Source: Candidatus Kuenenia stuttgartensis
GTDB taxonomy: Bacteria; Planctomycetota; Planctomycetia; Pirellulales; UBA1268
NCBI GenBank assembly: GCA_943332855.1
Contig: CALQRA010000020.1
Location: 1-35,647 of the forward strand
Direction: 5' to 3'
Length of the DNA stretch: 35,647 bases
Part shown: positions 6,074 through 33,610 of the stretch, one piece after another
Layout of the letters: each line of letters starts with the position of its first letter
Position numbering within the stretch: position 1 is the first letter of the stretch
Program-made: the position numbers and the translations under genes
The notes under the pieces: generated by a model
Told to the model about the DNA's origin: nothing
Databases searched by the model: none
Seen by the model: the letters and a program-made list of their open reading frames with translations, nothing else

Positions 6074-8266
6074 TCAACGCTTGGCGGCGAGCATGCCCTC
6101 GAGACGGTTGCCGGCGGCCCGGCAGGCGAGGATCTGCACGGTCTTCTCGACGATCTGGGCAGCGGCCTCGACGGGGGGAAGGCCAGCGGAATAGATGTTC
6201 GAGATCACCGTTACCTCGTGCCTGATGTCGGCGTTGCCGCTGGCCCGGGCCGCATCGCCGCGCTGTTCGGCCGGCACCCGGTAGACGAGATAGGCCGACA
6301 GGCTCCTCGAAGCCAGCGCATCCCCCCCCGGCCGCTCGCCGATGAGATGAATGACGAGATCGGCCCCGAGGTGCTCCCCCACCGGCTCGGCGAGCTTGAC
6401 CCGGCCGTGGCGCGCCACCAGCGGCACGCCGACGCCGATCCCCTTGGCGGAGAGCCCTTCGAGGAGGACAGGGAGGAGATCGGGGAGGTTGTAATGAACG
6501 GCTGCCGCCGACAGGCCGTCGGAGATGAGGATCTGCACCGCAAACGGCTCGGAGTTGAGGCTCGCGAGGGCTGCGGCGGTCGGTCGGGTGCCGAGGCCCG
6601 GTGAGGCGAGGTGGGCCTCATGCGTGGCCGCTGCGGTGGCGATTTCACGGACGGGGTGAATCGCCCGCAGGCGGTCGACGTCGAGAGGGAGATGGACGGC
6701 GCCCCGTCCCACCGCCTGATGGAAGCGGACGCGGCGGGAGACGGCGTCGGCGGGGCGCGGGCCGGCGTTCTCGAAGCCGTGGAGCGCCGGCGTCGCCGCG
6801 ACAAGCTCGGCGAGCTCCTCCGAGGAATCGCAGAATCGCTCCGGTCGCCCCCACTCCGGGCCGCGGACGACCGCGCCGGCGGCGTCGCGCGCGAGGATCC
6901 CGCGGCCGAGGCACCAGGCGAGGAACTCTCCGGCAGGCTCGCGGCCGTGGATCTCGCGGAGCGTCTGGTTGTCGTGGGCGCTGGTGTCGAAGTAGGCGAG
7001 CATCCGATCGGTGTTGAGGGCGACGTCCATGAAGTAGGTGGCGCCGGCGGCCGCGAGGAGCTCGGTCGTCGCCTGCTGCCCCTCAAGGCCGCTGCCGGCA
7101 TGGAGCGTGTAGCAGCTGCCGATTCCCATCGGCAGGCCGAGGAGCTTGGCGAGGAACAGGTCCTGGAGGCTCGCCACGAGGAGCTCGAAGTTGTCGGCGT
7201 GGGTCTCCGGGCCGATGAAGCCGGTGACGTTGTTGATCATGAAGGGGTCGTAGCGCCGCGCCAGGCCGTAGCAAAGGGCCTCGGTCGTCGTCATGTCGAT
7301 CCCGTCGTGGCGGCCGTAGGAGAGCTCGCTCCCCTGGCCGGTCTCGAAGTACATGAACTGTGCCGCCGAATCCTTGAGCGGTCCGTGGGCGCGCATCGCC
7401 TCCCAGCCGCGGTCGAGGAGCGTGACCGTGACGTCAAACTCGGCCGTCAGCGTCGCCTCGGTGCCGGCGAGGCTTTGAAAAAGGATCTCGACCGGGGCCC
7501 CCCCCTCGAGCGCCGCCAGCTGCGTCTTGATGTGCGAGAGGACGCAGATCTGCGTTGGCACGCCGGCCTGGCGGCGGATGCCGTCGAGGAGCCGGAGGAT
7601 GGCCGACACGTTGGCGACGGTGTCGATCGCCGGGTTGACACCGATGAGCGCGTCGCCGGCGGCCATCGACAGGCCCCACCATGTCAGGAGCGTAATCCCG
7701 CGCGGGTCGTCGGTGGGATGGTTGGGCTGGAGACGCGAGGAGAGCGTGCCGCGGGCCCCGAGGAGCGTCCGGGCCCGGGTCGGATGGACGATCCGCCGGG
7801 CGACGAGAACGAGCTCGTGGATGTCGCAGAGCTTGGCGACCGCGGCGGCGGTAACGCCGGTCAGCCCGCGCCCCAGCCGGAGGGCCTCCTCCCCCGATCC
7901 GGCCAGAAGCCGGTCCTTCAGCCCCCCGATCGTGAGCCCGGCGATCTCGCCGTAAACATCCGCATCGATGTCGTAGTTGACGCGCATCACGTCGTCGACG
8001 CGATCGTCGGCGGCCAGGAGCGGGCGCTGGTGGAGATGGTCGATCGTGAGCCCGGCGAGGATCGAGCGGGCCGCCTCGCGCTCGGTCTCGGTGGCGGCCG
8101 CGAGCCCGGCGTGCCGGTCCCCCGCCTTGGGAAAGTCAGCAGCGCCGAGGAGGCGTTTGAGCCCGACAAACCGGATCGGCCCCTCGGGGCCTTCGCAGGT
8201 ATAGGTCTCATCGGGCCGCGCCGGCGGCACGGCGATCGCGGAGAGCGGATTCAGTTGAGCGGCCAT
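6074..8266 (-). CDS. eutBC: Single-chain ethanolamine ammonia-lyase: EutB (large) fused to EutC (small subunit)
   Basis: A 730-residue protein. Residues ~30-480 align with EutB and ~505-720 with EutC, which are separate genes in most bacteria. EutB landmarks are SRLQPN (Arg178, Gln180), GDALIGVNP (Asn211), ILFQSLAGTE, YFETGQGSELS (Glu308) and YGLARRYDPFMINNVTGFIGPE. They match E. coli Arg160, Gln162, Asn193, Glu287 and Phe329 as I recall that sequence. The EutC part keeps VQILISDGLSA and IGERPGGDALASRSLSAYL, the cobalamin-binding region. The reaction is adenosylcobalamin-dependent conversion of ethanolamine to acetaldehyde and ammonia. Oddity: the E. coli SMGCDCCYTNHAD segment, whose Asp362 touches the substrate amine, reads PMGIGSCYTLHAG here, so the Asp is Gly383. 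Substrate preference may therefore differ. No carboxysome-like shell genes are nearby. The upstream region (8267-8378) is shared with the divergent SdpI gene. Confidence 0.93.
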   Translation of the reverse strand: MAAQLNPLSAIAVPPARPDETYTCEGPEGPIRFVGLKRLLGAADFPKAGDRHAGLAAATETEREAARSILAGLTIDHLHQRPLLAADDRVDDVMRVNYDIDADVYGEIAGLTIGGLKDRLLAGSGEEALRLGRGLTGVTAAAVAKLCDIHELVLVARRIVHPTRARTLLGARGTLSSRLQPNHPTDDPRGITLLTWWGLSMAAGDALIGVNPAIDTVANVSAILRLLDGIRRQAGVPTQICVLSHIKTQLAALEGGAPVEILFQSLAGTEATLTAEFDVTVTLLDRGWEAMRAHGPLKDSAAQFMYFETGQGSELSYGRHDGIDMTTTEALCYGLARRYDPFMINNVTGFIGPETHADNFELLVASLQDLFLAKLLGLPMGIGSCYTLHAGSGLEGQQATTELLAAAGATYFMDVALNTDRMLAYFDTSAHDNQTLREIHGREPAGEFLAWCLGRGILARDAAGAVVRGPEWGRPERFCDSSEELAELVAATPALHGFENAGPRPADAVSRRVRFHQAVGRGAVHLPLDVDRLRAIHPVREIATAAATHEAHLASPGLGTRPTAAALASLNSEPFAVQILISDGLSAAAVHYNLPDLLPVLLEGLSAKGIGVGVPLVARHGRVKLAEPVGEHLGADLVIHLIGERPGGDALASRSLSAYLVYRVPAEQRGDAARASGNADIRHEVTVISNIYSAGLPPVEAAAQIVEKTVQILACRAAGNRLEGMLAAKR

Positions 8267-8378
8267 CGCCCTACGATACCGTCAGCCCGCGCCGGCGTCT
8301 GCGGGGCTACGTCTGACCGGCCACAGCAACCGTCGCCGGCCGTCGTAGAATAGAGCAATCCCACCCCAGGTGCCCACC

Positions 8379-9023
8379 ATGCCCCGTGCTGCCGTGCTTG
8401 TTTCGCTGGCGCTGATCGGCGTCTCCCTCGCCCTCTCCGCCTGGCTCTACACAAGTCTTCCTGACGTCATCCCCACCCACTGGAACATCAACGGGGAGGC
8501 CGACGGCTTCGGGCCGAAGGGGGTGGCGGCCTGGCTCCTCCCGGTGATCACCCTCGCCCTGCTCGGCTTCATGTGCCTGATTCCTTGGCTCTCGCCGCAG
8601 GGATTCCAGGTCGATGTTCATGGGCGCGCTTTCAGCGTCCTTCTGGTAGCGCTGACGTCGCTGATGGTCTTCATCCATCTCCTCTCGCTCGCGGCGGCGC
8701 TTCGCCCTGGGCTCGAGGTTGGCCGAGCGATGGTGGCCGGCGTGATGTTTTTCCTCGGGGCCATCGGGACGACCTTCAGCGGGATCAAACGCAATTTCTT
8801 CATCGGCGTCCGCGTTCCCTGGACGATCGCCTCGGAGCGGGTGTGGGACGATACCCACGCTCTCGCCGCGCGGATTTGGGTCGTCGGTGGGTTTCTCGGC
8901 GCGGTGCTCGCCGCCCTCGGGCAGACGCTGCCGGCGCTGATCCTCGTGGCGCCGATGGCGCTGGTGCCGATTGTCTATTCCTTCGTCCGCTACAAGCAGC
9001 TCGAGCGGCTCGGGCAGCTGTGA
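8379..9023 (+). CDS. DUF1648 / SdpI family integral membrane protein
   Basis: A 214-residue protein with about six membrane segments. The N-terminal DUF1648 motif is LPDVIPTHWNINGEADGFGPK. The SdpI-type signature KRNFFIGVRVPWTIASERVWDDTHALAARIWVVGG follows in the second half. The ATG at 8379 is preferred over the in-frame GTG at 8370, and AGG lies 8 bases upstream of the ATG. A TAGAAT hexamer (8346-8351) could be a -10 element, though no convincing -35 is seen. In Bacillus, SdpI gives immunity to the SdpC toxin, but most homologues have no known partner and no SdpC-like gene is visible here. The gene lies opposite and between eutA and eutBC, converging on eutA with only 18 bases between the stops. 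Confidence 0.85.
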   Translation: MPRAAVLVSLALIGVSLALSAWLYTSLPDVIPTHWNINGEADGFGPKGVAAWLLPVITLALLGFMCLIPWLSPQGFQVDVHGRAFSVLLVALTSLMVFIHLLSLAAALRPGLEVGRAMVAGVMFFLGAIGTTFSGIKRNFFIGVRVPWTIASERVWDDTHALAARIWVVGGFLGAVLAALGQTLPALILVAPMALVPIVYSFVRYKQLERLGQL

Positions 9024-9041
9024 CACCCGTGCCTGCAGGCT

Positions 9042-10472
9042 TCAGCCCTCGAGGCCGTGGTACGACACCGGCACGACGCCGTCGCGCTCCCTCCCCAGGG
9101 AGACCCAGCGGGCAGCGGGGAGATCGAGCTCGTCAACGATCACGAGCTCGACGGCCAATCCTCCCCACCGGGTCGCGCACTGGCCGAGGGCCTGGCCGCA
9201 GTTGGTGTCGAGGAGAACCACCAGCGGCCTTTCGGCGGGCCAGGAAAGCGATTCGAGGACAGCGGCGAGCCGCCGGCCGAAGGACCGCACGGCGTCGGCG
9301 GTCGGCGCGAGGCCCCTGACGCGCACCGCCGCGCCGGCCCCTGAGCGCCGGGCCAAGCCGAGGGCCGCGGCGACGGCGGCGTCGTTGCTGGCCGGCTCGA
9401 GCGTGGCGACGATCGGCAGGTCGGTGAGGGGGAGGAGCCGCGGGGCGGGGAGATGGATGCTTGCCCCCGAGATCCGCGTGGCATGGCGGAGCAGGCCGAC
9501 GACGGTCGCCCGGCCGCCTCCCTCCGGTACCTCCTCGCGCCAGTGCCGGCGCCAGGTGGGATGGACGAGGAGCCGGCGGGCGAGATCGACGCCGAGATCG
9601 CCGTACGCGCTCGTGCCGGGAAGCTCGTCCCCCCGCGCCGCGGCGTAGACCAGCTCGCCGACGCCGCCGGAGAGCGTCACGATCCGGTCGGGGCCTGTGG
9701 CAATCTGCCCCGGCAAAAAGGGTATTTGGAGATGGCCGAGCGTTGTTGGGTCGTCGGCGTCGACCGCCGCGCCGGCCACGGCCTGGTCAAGGAGGGCCAG
9801 GTACCAATCGAGGACTCGCTCGAGATCGGCGGCCGGCAGATCGTCGCCGGGGGCGGCGCGGATGCCGAGGGCTGCGAACAGGGCGCGGGCCTGGCAGGAG
9901 AGGGCCTCGATCCGACGCGATCCCGCCACGAAGCGCACGTGCCGCGCGCCGACAAACAGGCAGCCGGTGGCGAGAACGGTGCCATCGATCCCAGCGGCGA
10001 GGTTCGTCGTGCCGCCACCGATGTCGAGATGGATGAAGGTCCGCCGCGGATGCCGCCGGGAGAGCGCCGCACAGCTCCCCTGGAAGGCGAGCCACGATTC
10101 GAGGCAGGGGTCGTCGGCCGTGGCGACCAGCGTCGTCCCCAGCCGGGCGCGGATCGCGGCCACCAGTCCGGCGGCGTTCTCTCTTCGGGCAGTGAGGCCG
10201 GTGAGAAGCGCTCCCCCGCCGCCGATGTCGGTCGTCCCCGGGATCACCCCGGCGCGGGTCAGCCAGTCGTCGACGAGCCGGAGCGTGGCGGCGAGATCGA
10301 GCACGTCGCCATCCAGCGGCGTGAACACGAGCGGCGAGCGGTAGGTCTCGCGGATCACCGTCAGCTCCATCCGCCCAGTAACAGCGTTGCGACGGACCAT
10401 CGCCTCGGCGGCGAGCGCGCTCGATGTCGTCGTTCCGAAGTCGAGGCCGACGAGGGTCGTTGTGGCAGCCAT
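9042..10472 (-). CDS. eutA: EutA, ethanolamine ammonia-lyase reactivating factor
   Basis: A 476-residue ASKHA-fold ATPase. It opens with VGLDFGTTTSSALAAE (phosphate-1 loop). It continues with DIGGGGALLTGLTARRENA (family hallmark, ~82-100), HLDIGGGTTNLAAGIDG (phosphate-2, ~149-164), TLSGGVGELVYA (adenosine loop, ~267-278), SAYGDLGVDLARRLL and TRISGASIHLP. These follow the order and wording of EutA, and the length matches the usual ~467 residues. EutA exchanges damaged cobalamin on EutBC for fresh adenosylcobalamin using ATP, so a nearby EutBC is its expected client. The ATG at 10472 overlaps the TGA of the upstream permease as TGATG, which suggests translational coupling. The same frame is open far upstream, but that part reads against the permease gene and is not coding. 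eutA is separated from eutBC by the opposing SdpI gene. Confidence 0.9.
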   Translation of the reverse strand: MAATTTLVGLDFGTTTSSALAAEAMVRRNAVTGRMELTVIRETYRSPLVFTPLDGDVLDLAATLRLVDDWLTRAGVIPGTTDIGGGGALLTGLTARRENAAGLVAAIRARLGTTLVATADDPCLESWLAFQGSCAALSRRHPRRTFIHLDIGGGTTNLAAGIDGTVLATGCLFVGARHVRFVAGSRRIEALSCQARALFAALGIRAAPGDDLPAADLERVLDWYLALLDQAVAGAAVDADDPTTLGHLQIPFLPGQIATGPDRIVTLSGGVGELVYAAARGDELPGTSAYGDLGVDLARRLLVHPTWRRHWREEVPEGGGRATVVGLLRHATRISGASIHLPAPRLLPLTDLPIVATLEPASNDAAVAAALGLARRSGAGAAVRVRGLAPTADAVRSFGRRLAAVLESLSWPAERPLVVLLDTNCGQALGQCATRWGGLAVELVIVDELDLPAARWVSLGRERDGVVPVSYHGLEG

Positions 10473-28815: not shown

Positions 28816-30441
28816 TTAGAACACCACGGTCCCGCGCATCATCCACAGATCGGTGTGGTCGTGGCCGACGGCGACGCCGGTGAGCGGGTTCCAGATGTGC
28901 TGGTAGCTGGGGATGAGCCGGATCGCCGGCGTGATCGCGTAGTCGTAAAACACCTCCATCCCCTGCTCGTTCTTCACATTCAGGGCGCCGCCGGTGTAGC
29001 GGCGAACCTGGTTCTGGAGATCGGGGCTGATGCCGTTCATGTACCAGCCGACGCCGACGCTGTCGTAGGCCCGCGACTCGGCAAGGCCACGGGCGAACAG
29101 GGCGACGCTGCCGTCGCCGGTGATCGTGTTGGTCTGCTGCGGCGCCCAGCCGGCGCGGCCGAAGACACCGAGGCCGCGGAGCGGCACGCCACTCTTGAGC
29201 TTCATGGCGACCTCCTTCGGGGCATCGGCCACATAGAGATACTGCGAGGCGTTGGCGATCAGAAAGCAGCTGCTCGAGGAATTGTTGATCGGCAGGCCAG
29301 CCGATTCGGGGCTGCCGAGGAGATAGCCGACGGCCTGGGGGATCTGCCCGGGGGAGAGAGCGCCGTAGGGGTTGGTGAGGTCGAGCTGGTATTGATTCGA
29401 CCAATTGAAGGCGGGGCTGAACTGGCCCGGGAGGCCGCCGATCTCGTAGGACGCGACCGCGGTGAAGTAGAGGTTCACCCGGTCGAAGGCATTCGTGGCG
29501 AGGTTCTGGGCGCGGCTGTTGGGGTCGAGGACGCCGCCGGCGAAGGCGAGTTGCTTGCTCGGGGCCCACACGCCGAGGGCGGCCCAGGCGGTGGGGTTGT
29601 AGAAGTTCGTCGTGATCGGATTCTTGTTGAAGGCGAAGTTGGCGAAATAAAACTTGTAGCTGTCGCCGAACAGCGTTTGGTCCGGGATGAAGATATCGCT
29701 GATCTTGCCGACGAGGAGGCTCGTCTGTTCGCTCAAGCCTTGGACGAGGAAATACTCGCTCGGGAGCATCGTTGAAGACGCGAGCGGATCGGGGAGGAGG
29801 AGCCCGGTGTAGGTCGGGACGCTCGCGGCAGAATTGAAGGTCTGCTCTGGATTGCCGCCGTAGCGGGCCTGGGTCGTGAAGTGGATCAGACCGCCGTCCC
29901 ACAGCCCGGCCCGGCCGGTGTCAATGTTGATCGACATCTGCGTGTTTTGGACAAACCAGTCCCCCGGATCGAGGCCTCCCGACATGATGTCCTGGTAGGC
30001 GCTGGTCGTGTAGACGTCGAAGAACACGCCGCGGCGGGCGAGGTCGGTCCGCCTGCCCCCCCAGTCGCCGGTGAGTTGGGTGCGATCCCAGAAGCCGCCG
30101 GTGACGGTGCCGGGGAGGCCGAAGACGGGGCCGTTGTTGAAGAATGGATAGAGGACCGGCGCGGCGTTGGCCAGCGACAGGTGGTCGGTCGGCACCGGTC
30201 CCCAGTCGTCGGCCGACATCGCCGGAGTTGCCGGCGCGGCGGCCGGCGTGGCCCCAAGACTGCCGTCATTGAGGTAGCCGAAGCCGTCGAAATTGCCACC
30301 TTGGCCGAGGGCCCTGTCACCTCCCCCTGCGAGGCAGGCGAGGATGACGACGAGCGCTGCCAGCGACGGCGTGAGATGGTGGATCGGCTGTATCACACGC
30401 TCCATCAATCGCAAAACAGCGCCCCAACCTTTTGCCACCAT
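28816..30441 (-). CDS. OprB-type carbohydrate-selective porin
   Basis: A 541-residue protein from the ATG at 30441. A second in-frame ATG at 30405 (MERVIQPIHHL) is possible, but the first has AGGGG upstream. A signal peptide (SLAALVVILACLAGGGDRALGQ) is followed by an asparagine- and proline-rich linker. The OprB signature follows: GGFWDRTQLTGDWGGRRTDL, then ARRGVFFDVYTTSAYQDIMSGG. The rest is barrel-like, with alternating aromatic residues. Typical OprB segments include LLVGKISDIFIPDQTLFGDSYKFYFANFAF near the middle and, at the end, GMEVFYDYAITPAIRLIPSYQHIWNP and a terminal Phe. It should sit in the outer membrane as a diffusion channel for sugars or other small solutes. It faces the amine operon across the hairpins at 28745-28809 and diverges from the repeat-protein/cyclase pair. 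A hairpin CCGGCA/TGCCGG (30466-30484) lies in its leader. Confidence 0.88.
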   Translation of the reverse strand: MVAKGWGAVLRLMERVIQPIHHLTPSLAALVVILACLAGGGDRALGQGGNFDGFGYLNDGSLGATPAAAPATPAMSADDWGPVPTDHLSLANAAPVLYPFFNNGPVFGLPGTVTGGFWDRTQLTGDWGGRRTDLARRGVFFDVYTTSAYQDIMSGGLDPGDWFVQNTQMSINIDTGRAGLWDGGLIHFTTQARYGGNPEQTFNSAASVPTYTGLLLPDPLASSTMLPSEYFLVQGLSEQTSLLVGKISDIFIPDQTLFGDSYKFYFANFAFNKNPITTNFYNPTAWAALGVWAPSKQLAFAGGVLDPNSRAQNLATNAFDRVNLYFTAVASYEIGGLPGQFSPAFNWSNQYQLDLTNPYGALSPGQIPQAVGYLLGSPESAGLPINNSSSSCFLIANASQYLYVADAPKEVAMKLKSGVPLRGLGVFGRAGWAPQQTNTITGDGSVALFARGLAESRAYDSVGVGWYMNGISPDLQNQVRRYTGGALNVKNEQGMEVFYDYAITPAIRLIPSYQHIWNPLTGVAVGHDHTDLWMMRGTVVF

Positions 30442-30690: not shown

Positions 30691-31254
30691 ATGGGCAAAG
30701 ACTCCGACGAAGCCAACGCCCTGCGGCTGGAAATACGCGATCTGCAGAATCATGCCACCGCCTTGCGCGGGGAGCTTGAGGCAGCCAGATCGGCGATGGC
30801 CACCGCCGTGCAGCGAGCCGTCGCCGAGGGGGGGGCCGAAGCGGCCCAGCTCCAAGCCACGGTCGTGGCGCTGCGCGACGAGCTCGAGCGTGCCCGGGCC
30901 GATACCCAGCGCCTGGTGGCGGCCACCCTGGCCGTTTCCAGCGGGGAGATCGGCCAACTGAAGCAGACCGTCGTCGCCCTCCGCGAGACGCTCGAGAAGG
31001 AAAGAGCCGACAGGGACGAACGGATCCGTCAGACGAGGCTCGAGAGCAACGACGAGATCATCCAGCTGCGCAACACCGCCGCGGCGTTGCGTGGGCAGAT
31101 GGACGATGATCGTGCCACGCGGGACCAGACGATCCAATCGGGGCGCGCCGAGGATCGTGCCGAGATCGCCGAGCTACAGGGCACGATCCACCAGCTGCGC
31201 CAACGGCTCGAAGACGAGACGAACGCACGGCAGCAAGACCGAAGAGAGTCATGA
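30691..31254 (+). CDS. Coiled-coil protein made of five 36-residue repeats
   Basis: A 187-residue, very hydrophilic, all-helical protein without signal peptide or membrane segment. After 16 leader residues it consists of units at 17-52, 53-88, 89-124, 125-160 and a shortened 161-187, all in register without gaps. The consensus is [DQE]LQ.T..ALR..LE..RA, with a hydrophobic residue at position 24 and, in units 2-4, EI at 34-35. The hydrophobic spacing is heptad-like with one extra residue per unit (36 = 5x7+1). I do not recognise a named family. The stop codon is one base before the start of the adenylyl cyclase, so the two are almost certainly cotranscribed. A scaffold or oligomerisation partner role is possible but is inference. 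Its ribosome binding site is inside a hairpin. Confidence 0.75.
   Translation: MGKDSDEANALRLEIRDLQNHATALRGELEAARSAMATAVQRAVAEGGAEAAQLQATVVALRDELERARADTQRLVAATLAVSSGEIGQLKQTVVALRETLEKERADRDERIRQTRLESNDEIIQLRNTAAALRGQMDDDRATRDQTIQSGRAEDRAEIAELQGTIHQLRQRLEDETNARQQDRRES
30739..31251 (+). repeat. five diverged 108-bp in-frame repeats
   Basis: Units start at 30739, 30847, 30955, 31063 and 31171 (the last truncated to 81 bases). They encode the 36-residue protein repeats. They are recognisable mainly at the protein level (QLQATVVALRDELE, QLKQTVVALRETLE, QLRNTAAALRGQMD), so the duplication is old. Confidence 0.75.
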
Positions 31255-31255
31255 C

Positions 31256-33610
31256 ATGGACGAGGAACGAACGATGACAGCCGATGAGATCCCTTCGCCG
31301 TCGGGCCCGCCCCGAGCCGTGATCACCAGCCCCGCCGATCGCACCGGCAAGACGCGGAGCAATGCCGCGTCGCGTTCCCGGCGGATCCGGCTGATCGAGC
31401 TGCTGCTCGAGGTGTCGCGGCGCATGGCTGCCTATGACACGCTCGACGAGGTTCTCCACTCGCTGGTCGAGATGACCACCAGGGAAGTCGGCGCCGAACG
31501 AGGCTCGCTGTTTCTCAACGATCCGGCTACGAACGAGCTCTATTCGCGCGTCGCGCAGGGCAACATCCGCCGCGAGATCCGGCTGCTCAACACCACTGGC
31601 ATCGCCGGCCACGCGTTCACCAGTGGCGAGTCGATGATCATCAACGACCCGTATGCCGATCCTCGCTTCAGTCGGGCCAACGACGAGCAGACCGGATTCG
31701 TGACCCGCAGCATCCTCTGCGTGCCGGTCAAGACCGTGCGGGGTGAGATCATCGGCGTGGTCGAGGCGATCAACAAGATCGAAGGCACCTTCGACGAGGA
31801 AGACCTCGAGATCCTCGAAGCGATGGCCACGCAGGGAACGGTCGCCCTGCAGGGGGCCCAGTTCATCGAGCGGATGAAGGCGATTCGGGCCCAGGAGATG
31901 GAGTTTGTCGAGATCGTTTCGGAGGTCACCGCCGACATCAAGCTCGGGTCGCTGCTCCGCAGGGTGATGGGGGAGGCGACTCGGCTGCTCAGCGCTGACC
32001 GCTCCACGCTCTTCCTCCACGACGACAAGACGCAGGAGCTGTGGTCGGAAGTCGGCCAGGGGCTGGAGTCGATGCAGATCCGTCTGCCGAACCACCTCGG
32101 CATCGCCGGCGCGGTCTTCACCTCGGGGAAGTCGATCAACATCCCTTACGCCTACGCCGATCTGCGGTTCAATCCGGCCTTCGACAAGCGCACCGGCTAC
32201 TTCACCCGATCGATCCTCTGTGTGCCGATCCTGAACAAGCTCGGTGCAGTGATCGGCGTCACGCAGGTGCTCAACAAGCGCGGCGGTCCGTTTACCGCGG
32301 AGGATGAATCACGCCTCCGGGCGTTCACGGCCCAGATCTCGATCGCGCTGGAGAATGCCAAGCTGTTCGCCGACGTGCAGAACATGAAGAACTACAGCGA
32401 AGCGATGCTCGAATCGATGTCGAATGGCGTGGTCACCATCGATGACACCGGAAAGATCGTCACCTGCAATGCGGCCGGCCTGCGGATTCTCCGAGCCACG
32501 CCCGCGGAGGTGCTGCACAAGCCGGTGGCTGATTTCTTCACCGGCGGCAACGCCTGGGTGCTCGGGAAGCTCGAGGCTGTCGGGATCAGTGGCGCGGCGG
32601 AAGTGCTGATGGATGCCGAGCTTGTCTTCGGGGAGGAAACGATCTCGACCAACGTCACCGTGCTGCCGCTGGCTTCGGTCGAACACAAGCGGATCGGATC
32701 GATGCTGATGATCGAGGACATCTCGAGCGAAAAGCGGTTGAAGTCGACGATGTCGCGCTACATGGATCCGGGCATCGCCGACAAGCTCGTCGCCTCCGGA
32801 GCCGACATGCTGGGGGGGCAGTCGGTGGAAGCAACGGTGTTGTTCTCCGACATCCGCGGCTTCACCACGCACACCGAGAGGCTTGGCGCCCAGGGGACGG
32901 TGGCGATGCTCAACGAGTATTTCACGCTGATGGTCGACTGCATCCAGCACGAGGGGGGGATGCTCGACAAGTTCATCGGCGACGCCATCATGGCCGGATT
33001 CGGGATCCCGGTCGCCCATGACGACGACGTCGATCGCGCCATGCGGGCCTCCATCGCCATGATCAAGGAGCTCCGGCGCTGGAACGTGCAGCGTGTTGCC
33101 GAGGGGAAGCTGCCGATCGACATCGGCATCGGGCTCAACACCGACGTCGTGGTGTCGGGCAACATCGGCTCGAGGAAGCGGATGGATTACACGATGATTG
33201 GCGACGGCGTGAATCTCGCCGCCCGCTTGGAATCGGCCTGCAAGCAGTACGGCGCGCAGATCCTCGTCAGCGAATACACCTACAAAAAGCTCCGCGGCAC
33301 CTACCGGGCCCGTGACATCGATCTCGTGGTTGTGAAAGGGAAGACCCAGCCGGTGGGCGTCTACGAGATCCTCGATCATCACACCGAGGAGACCTTCCCG
33401 CATCTCGTCGAGTGCCTGGGGTATTTTCGCGACGGTCTCGCGGCCTACCGGGCGCGGGCTTTCGGGAAGGCCCGGGAGCTGTTTGAGAAGGTCCTGGCGC
33501 TCAACCCGGCAGACAAGGGGGCGAAGCTCTATCTGGAGCGCTGCCGGATCCTCACCGAAACGCCTCCCCCTCCGGACTGGAGTGGCGTGTGGGTGATGGA
33601 GGAGAAATAG
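31256..33610 (+). CDS. Class III adenylyl cyclase with GAF-GAF-PAS sensor domains
   Basis: A 784-residue cytoplasmic protein from the ATG at 31256; an in-frame ATG at 31274 is an alternative. Two tandem GAF domains (~65-205 and ~232-372) share wording such as GIAGHAFTSGESMIINDPYADPRF and GIAGAVFTSGKSINIPYAYADLRF. A PAS domain (~380-490) follows, with a typical start EAMLESMSNGVVTIDDTGKIV. The cyclase domain (~520-710) has metal-binding Asp532 (LFSDIRGFT) and Asp576 (GDAIMAGFG), Lys572 in DKFIGD and Thr646 in DYTMIGD as likely adenine-selecting residues. Asn653 and Arg657 (GVNLAARLES) are the transition-state pair. It therefore looks active and makes cAMP. The C-terminus has a TPR-like helix pair (AFGKARELFEKVLALNPADKG). 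GAF ligands are unknown. It lies one base after the repeat-protein gene. Confidence 0.94.
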   Translation: MDEERTMTADEIPSPSGPPRAVITSPADRTGKTRSNAASRSRRIRLIELLLEVSRRMAAYDTLDEVLHSLVEMTTREVGAERGSLFLNDPATNELYSRVAQGNIRREIRLLNTTGIAGHAFTSGESMIINDPYADPRFSRANDEQTGFVTRSILCVPVKTVRGEIIGVVEAINKIEGTFDEEDLEILEAMATQGTVALQGAQFIERMKAIRAQEMEFVEIVSEVTADIKLGSLLRRVMGEATRLLSADRSTLFLHDDKTQELWSEVGQGLESMQIRLPNHLGIAGAVFTSGKSINIPYAYADLRFNPAFDKRTGYFTRSILCVPILNKLGAVIGVTQVLNKRGGPFTAEDESRLRAFTAQISIALENAKLFADVQNMKNYSEAMLESMSNGVVTIDDTGKIVTCNAAGLRILRATPAEVLHKPVADFFTGGNAWVLGKLEAVGISGAAEVLMDAELVFGEETISTNVTVLPLASVEHKRIGSMLMIEDISSEKRLKSTMSRYMDPGIADKLVASGADMLGGQSVEATVLFSDIRGFTTHTERLGAQGTVAMLNEYFTLMVDCIQHEGGMLDKFIGDAIMAGFGIPVAHDDDVDRAMRASIAMIKELRRWNVQRVAEGKLPIDIGIGLNTDVVVSGNIGSRKRMDYTMIGDGVNLAARLESACKQYGAQILVSEYTYKKLRGTYRARDIDLVVVKGKTQPVGVYEILDHHTEETFPHLVECLGYFRDGLAAYRARAFGKARELFEKVLALNPADKGAKLYLERCRILTETPPPPDWSGVWVMEEK

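Follow-up and report, generated by a model that had tools for sequence, protein, structure and literature searches.

The window, a stretch of 35,647 nucleotides from a planctomycete contig, encodes a protein of regular 36-residue helical repeats, here called the rod, directly upstream of a class III nucleotide cyclase, and the two genes occur together in very different bacteria. We found 33 adjacent rod-cyclase pairs and no orphan rods, all beside the same cyclase subfamily and spread over two phyla, which strongly supports the claim of a sequence-only reading of the window that the rod is dedicated to its cyclase. A rod beside one cyclase subfamily in bacteria this different points to a signalling module of two parts, as yet undescribed, whose rod would hold the enzyme or set its spacing. 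The best explanation, to which we assign a probability of roughly 0.55, is that the rod serves one subfamily of soluble adenylyl cyclases, those of the CyaB1/CyaB2 type, as a rod-like scaffold or spacer dedicated to them. The features on which the analysis rests are collected in Table 1.

Table 1. Coordinates of the rod gene, the cyclase gene and their neighbour in the window, and of the comparison locus L069.
Feature	Position	Strand	Basis or remark
OprB-type porin gene, divergent from rod gene	28816-30441	-	
36-residue-repeat rod (coil) gene, 187 aa + stop	30691..31254	+	ORF, ATG start
Repeat unit 1, 36 aa	30727..30834	+	unit table
Repeat unit 2, 36 aa	30835..30942	+	unit table; profile match 30835-31047
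Repeat unit 3, 36 aa	30943..31050	+	unit table
Repeat unit 4, 36 aa	31051..31158	+	unit table
Repeat unit 5, truncated, 31 aa	31159..31251	+	unit table
GAF-GAF-PAS-class III cyclase-TPR gene, 778 aa from conserved ATG	31274..33610	+	Pfam; start from relatives
Basic unstructured N-terminal tail of cyclase, putative docking segment	31274..31366	+	pLDDT <50 at residues 1-31
GAF-A	31442..31849	+	PF01590 residues 64-199, translation from 31253
GAF-B with NKFDE-type motif NKRGGPFTAEDE	31880..32293	+	1ykd match residues 203-340; motif
PAS domain	32399..32722	+	PF00989 residues 383-490, translation from 31253
Class III nucleotide cyclase domain	32828..33349	+	PF00211 E 1.4e-24
TPR-like C-terminal helices	33434..33511	+	PF07719 E 0.0048, below curated cut-off; helices 711-762 predicted
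L069, rod-cyclase pair	G682:C65:8000-27000, pair at 7123-10213		record titled Betaproteobacteria

A strict 36-residue repeat

The repeat of the window rod is strictly periodic. As the sequence-only reading had proposed, the protein holds five regular units, with the LRxxLE-like anchor motif recurring at successive spacings of 36, 36, 36 and 36 residues and the last unit cut short. Self-identity of the rod is 0.351 at an offset of 36 residues versus a mean of 0.096 over offsets 5-79, and 0 of 500 shuffled sequences reached 0.351 at their best offset in each of four kinds of shuffle (plain, or with position kept modulo 7, 11 or 18). The dN/dS of the gene against five relatives is 0.19-0.28, indicating purifying selection, and chance or low complexity as the origin of the repeat is ruled out by the shuffles, the selection and the orthologues. 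Compared with the cyclase, the rod has a dN/dS about three times as high, so it is loosely constrained away from its repeat signature, which counts against the best explanation. AlphaFold2 models the window rod as a single helix from residue 3 to 186 (184 residues, mean pLDDT 94.9), and the stable rod-like helix foreseen from the sequence was thereby borne out as a prediction.

The same register is kept across the family. The 31 rods compared contain 164 units, and every one of the 133 unit-to-unit spacings equals 36, with arrays ranging from 3 units in L099 (3-4, as one further degenerate end unit was left uncounted) to 18 units in L068. The unit tally requires LR..L at both array ends, which makes the presence of R14 in 164/164 units partly a matter of construction at the ends; inside the arrays of the 31 rods, R14 has no exception. 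After near copies were dropped (20 rods and 116 units remaining), the most conserved unit positions were R14 (116/116), L13, E18, L6, L17, E2 and T9. Between close relatives (the window versus L008 and L069) the units stand in orthologous order, which makes the repeats old in this group. One unit pair is 0.83 identical in the L096 rod (genome G814, six units), and one is 0.78 identical in the L068 rod, a sign of younger duplications, the one in L096 being recent.

Hydrophobic residues occupy unit positions 3, 6, 10, 13, 17 and then 28, 31 and 35, a pattern fitting 7+11+7+11, and the nearly invariant polar residues E2, T9, R14 and E18 border this hydrophobic stripe on both edges. At a helix rise of 1.5 angstrom per residue, each unit is estimated to add about 5.4 nm to the rod. 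In 28 of the 31 arrays the hydrophobic period is 3.58-3.61; the strongest period of the remaining three (L005, L094 and L100) is about 3.28, which counts against the best explanation. The unit had been read both as ten alpha-helical turns and as heptads plus one skip residue: the period of 3.6 agrees with the former, whereas 7+11+7+11, i.e., 18/5, fits better than the latter. According to the accessible part of PMC4786415, a straight helix has 3.63 residues per turn and 18/5 is an accessible period. As 3.6 is close to 3.63, the rod bundle should be nearly straight, judging from the sequence. The same accessible text describes period-18/5 coiled coils with 18 residues over 5 turns as 7+7+4, and the rod period of 3.6 is alike. 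Period 18/5 is a geometry, not a family, and we found no described 36-residue repeat family that has it.

The window rod matched no Pfam or NCBIfam family at the curated cut-off. Of five other rods, L065 exceeds the cut-off for ApoO (46.1 vs 31.4) and L067 that for axonemal dynein light chain (33.3 vs 26.4), both of them eukaryotic helical families in Pfam, and three exceed none; since these three pass none, both matches are probably cross-hits of helix composition, which could nevertheless mislabel the rod family in automatic annotation (L065:9743-11047 and L067:1797-2579). A search of the PDB with the rod returned four matches (best E 0.16), and the window's own genome returned two further weak rod matches (E 0.19 and 0.39), all of which we take as chance. 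Searches of the open-licence literature found no description of a rod-cyclase pair or of such a 36-residue repeat. A GAF-tandem cyclase and a coiled-coil rod are each of a known kind; what looks new is the repeat and the dedicated pairing of the two.

The adjoining cyclase

The downstream gene is the GAF-GAF-PAS cyclase that had been read from the sequence, with Pfam matches to two GAF domains, PAS and Guanylate_cyc and a weak one to TPR. Its distance from the rod depends on the start codon. The rod stop codon lies at 31252-31254 and the first in-frame cyclase ATG at 31256, which gives the one-base gap described earlier. A later ATG at 31274 (MTADE...) is kept in close relatives, which only in some cases keep the one at 31256, and we therefore placed the start at 31274; the true gap is more likely 19 bases, judging by this conservation, and the earlier figure holds for the first ATG only.

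The catalytic apparatus appears intact. Residues D526, K566, D570, T640, N647 and R651 are invariant in 24 aligned rows, and we take D526 and D570 to be the metal-binding aspartates and K566, N647 and R651 to have catalytic roles as well. The best PDB match of the cyclase is 1ykd (E 7.6e-45), described as an adenylate cyclase; this is the GAF tandem of Anabaena CyaB2. A strict NKFDE-type motif, which is linked to cNMP binding, is present in GAF-B of 29/31 rod-linked cyclases and in GAF-A of 0/31. The window cyclase thus resembles the soluble Anabaena enzymes CyaB1 and CyaB2 in its GAF tandem in front of a class III cyclase domain, its intact catalytic residues and the NKFDE motif in GAF-B. According to the accessible part of PMC4411481, cAMP activates CyaB2 by binding to the GAF domains of that enzyme; as a difference from the window cyclase, this part mentions no rod partner. 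A C-terminal tail of the PP..DW.GVWVM..K type (window 33553-33607) was seen in nearly all compared cyclases, with or without a rod.

In the structural model of the cyclase the catalytic domain is poorly predicted (mean pLDDT 72.3), a point against the best explanation. The model predicts long linker helices at residues 175-218 and 342-381. Such helices give some ground for a regulatory role, in which the rod would form a mixed coiled coil with the inter-GAF or GAF-PAS linker and shift the enzyme between active and inactive states. The strict one-to-one pairing would suit this role, and linker helices of such enzymes carry signal, according to the accessible text of PMC1592074. A regulator of this kind would have no need to hold a 36-residue register across 3-18 units, and rod length differs several-fold among partners of similar cyclases, so we consider this explanation unlikely. 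The S-helix of the same source, as far as its accessible text goes, likewise forms a parallel coiled coil and is coupled to cNMP cyclases as well as other domains, but it spans about 40 residues between domains of one polypeptide, whereas the rod is a separate protein of 3-18 repeats, whose ORF ends in a stop codon of its own in each of the 31 pairs.

Rod and cyclase occur as a pair

The pair forms a two-gene unit with the rod upstream and the cyclase downstream on the same strand, stop and start often overlapping. Where an ATG was found (27/31 pairs), the distance from the rod stop to the first cyclase ATG ranges from -8 to +88 nt and equals -4 in 10 of the 27. Translational fusion or frameshifting of the two frames is excluded by these distances and by the rod's own stop in every pair. 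No fused rod-cyclase protein was seen, a point against the best explanation.

A curiosity confined to one genus was suggested by the early matches. With the window rod as query, 6/72 family genomes matched; a seven-row rod profile found the same six among 296 genomes of the order (6/296), and cyclase matches at E <= 1e-100 occurred in 7/72 family genomes, i.e., the six rod genomes and G031. In G031 and G479, which stand outside the counts, the cyclase (89% and 62%, respectively) is cut at the contig start (at base 3 of the contig in G031) and the rod is not judgeable. A scan of GTDB contigs gave six rod loci with the cyclase adjoining in all, including L009 (record titled Betaproteobacteria), whose rod has one extra 36-residue unit. 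The genus-only explanation was overturned by the upstream regions of distant cyclases and by a two-unit profile. A cyclase search of the window's phylum matched 12/392 genomes, with rods beside the four cyclases that have 57-61% identity and the N-terminus present, and none beside more distant ones. The two-unit profile matched in these 392 genomes only G000, G328, G353, G359 and G366, each time beside a cyclase; the 12 cyclase genomes comprise five with a rod, the truncated G479 and six with only more distant cyclases. In the classes of G328 (2/9 genomes) and G359 (1/3) the profile returned already-known loci.

The agreement is exact in the order of G682, the genome that carries L009. The two-unit profile found a rod in 21/300 genomes, and the cyclase query, in apparently the same 300 genomes, matched 27. 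The 21 genomes with a close full-length cyclase (54-80% identity) coincide exactly with the 21 rod genomes; the six other cyclase genomes and six second copies, at <=51% identity, are without a rod. Such agreement would arise by chance at about 1e-32 if the genomes were independent, which they are not. A cyclase lies beside the rod at 20/20 loci returned by the rod search, the rod of the 21st genome (G717) having been read from its cyclase locus. At class level 3/151 genomes matched, G682 and two new ones, both with an adjacent cyclase. Neither of the two large paired searches (300 and 392 genomes) found a repeat protein elsewhere in the genome. The profile search with repeat units, which had been proposed as a check of the pairing with class III cyclases, thus returned homologues beside cyclases and none away from them. 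No plasmid match was found in 72,556 records (two rods at an E limit of 1e-5, the cyclase at 1e-80). Loci L035-L038, L040 and L041 were examined but lie outside the 31-pair set, most having membrane or HAMP-like N-termini by eye, and L090, which represents the L069 locus again, was dropped.

Paired genes may have no more in common than their regulation, and adjacency alone would yield the pairing if rod and cyclase were merely co-transcribed members of one pathway that make no contact, as the many short gaps or overlaps would allow. The exact co-occurrence across two phyla, the restriction to one cyclase clade and the lack of any other neighbour common to divergent loci argue against this, and we hold it to be quite improbable. 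Among the candidates for a conserved third gene, none is common to divergent loci; the OprB-type porin gene is kept as a neighbour in relatives of the window's genus, and neither L069 nor the distant loci showed it.

The rods also recall cytoskeletal proteins. Crescentin, FilP, Scy and DivIVA are likewise long helical rods, some with non-heptad stretches according to the accessible parts of the sources, and the rod might be a self-assembling filament of the crescentin or FilP kind, with the cyclase as one client recruited to position cAMP synthesis. The long unbroken helices, without a proline inside any array of the 31 rods, and a weak match of L067 to an intermediate filament model (23.4 bits vs a cut-off of 40) would agree with this. 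The rod differs from these proteins in its strict 36-residue register and strict cyclase pairing, and it matches no curated bacterial filament family at cut-off. A general filament would be expected without the cyclase too, which was never so in the 21, 5 or 3 rod genomes, and we rate the filament explanation as quite improbable.

Cyclase phylogeny and a probable transfer between phyla

Rod-linked cyclases form one lineage. In a tree of 43 cyclases, all 31 rod-linked sequences fall into a single clade (100/100) and the 12 outside it are without a rod; the rod label requires one change on this tree versus 10.7 for shuffled labels. The window's genus together with L069 forms a group (support 100/100) that falls within the sequences of G682's order, and the four other cyclases of the window's phylum branch apart from it. 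This nesting suggests, on the evidence of the tree, that the rod-cyclase pair was transferred between phyla, with some forks open and either direction possible. The L069 cyclase is about 80% identical to the planctomycete cyclase of the window, and its neighbours look betaproteobacterial; these are presumably two Bug-type receptors, a GGDEF protein and a TerC-like protein. L069 is probably a case of cross-phylum transfer or else a chimeric contig, the betaproteobacterial label of G682's order resting on one record title and the appearance of the L069 neighbour genes.

A proposed scaffold for the cyclase

The scaffold explanation can be put in structural terms. Two or more rod chains would pair into a nearly straight bundle, with each unit adding about 5.4 nm for a total of about 27 nm in the window rod, and since one unit equals ten whole helical turns, every unit would show the same face in the same direction. 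We infer that the rod binds the cyclase, possibly via the basic unstructured N-terminal tail of the enzyme, and that the bound rod places, clusters or stabilises the cyclase dimer, much as the sequence-only reading had suggested a possible role in dimerisation or localisation. The charges count for this explanation, as the rod arrays are net acidic in 30/31 cases (the remaining one has a net charge of 0) and the cyclase tails net positive in 28/31, by the start chosen. The non-basic tails of L066, L067 and L102, whose start sites are uncertain, count against docking through the tail. The rod-free tandem-GAF cyclases L111-L113 and L117 show, by eye, a helix-like N-terminus instead of an unstructured tail. 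Clustered cyclases would favour local positive feedback, by analogy with CyaB1/CyaB2, because GAF-B mostly carries a motif of the cAMP-binding type and CyaB2 is cAMP-activated.

A bolder version of the scaffold, speculative and in our estimate quite improbable, is a molecular ladder. Because the 36-residue unit is exactly ten helical turns, the same docking face would return at each 5.4 nm step on one side of a straight bundle, and cyclase dimers would line up along it. Unit number, from 3-4 to 18, would set how many cAMP-activated cyclases can be reached by one another's product and would thereby tune the gain of a local switch driven by cAMP positive feedback; the pair would travel between phyla as a single cassette.

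Studies of bacterial class III cyclases usually treat them as single polypeptides. If the rod is indeed a strict partner in two or more phyla, one subfamily of these enzymes would act within an assembly, and rod length would offer a simple handle on how spacing or clustering alters cAMP signalling. For its part, the rod would provide a natural helical building block, nearly straight and expandable, made from one 36-residue unit.
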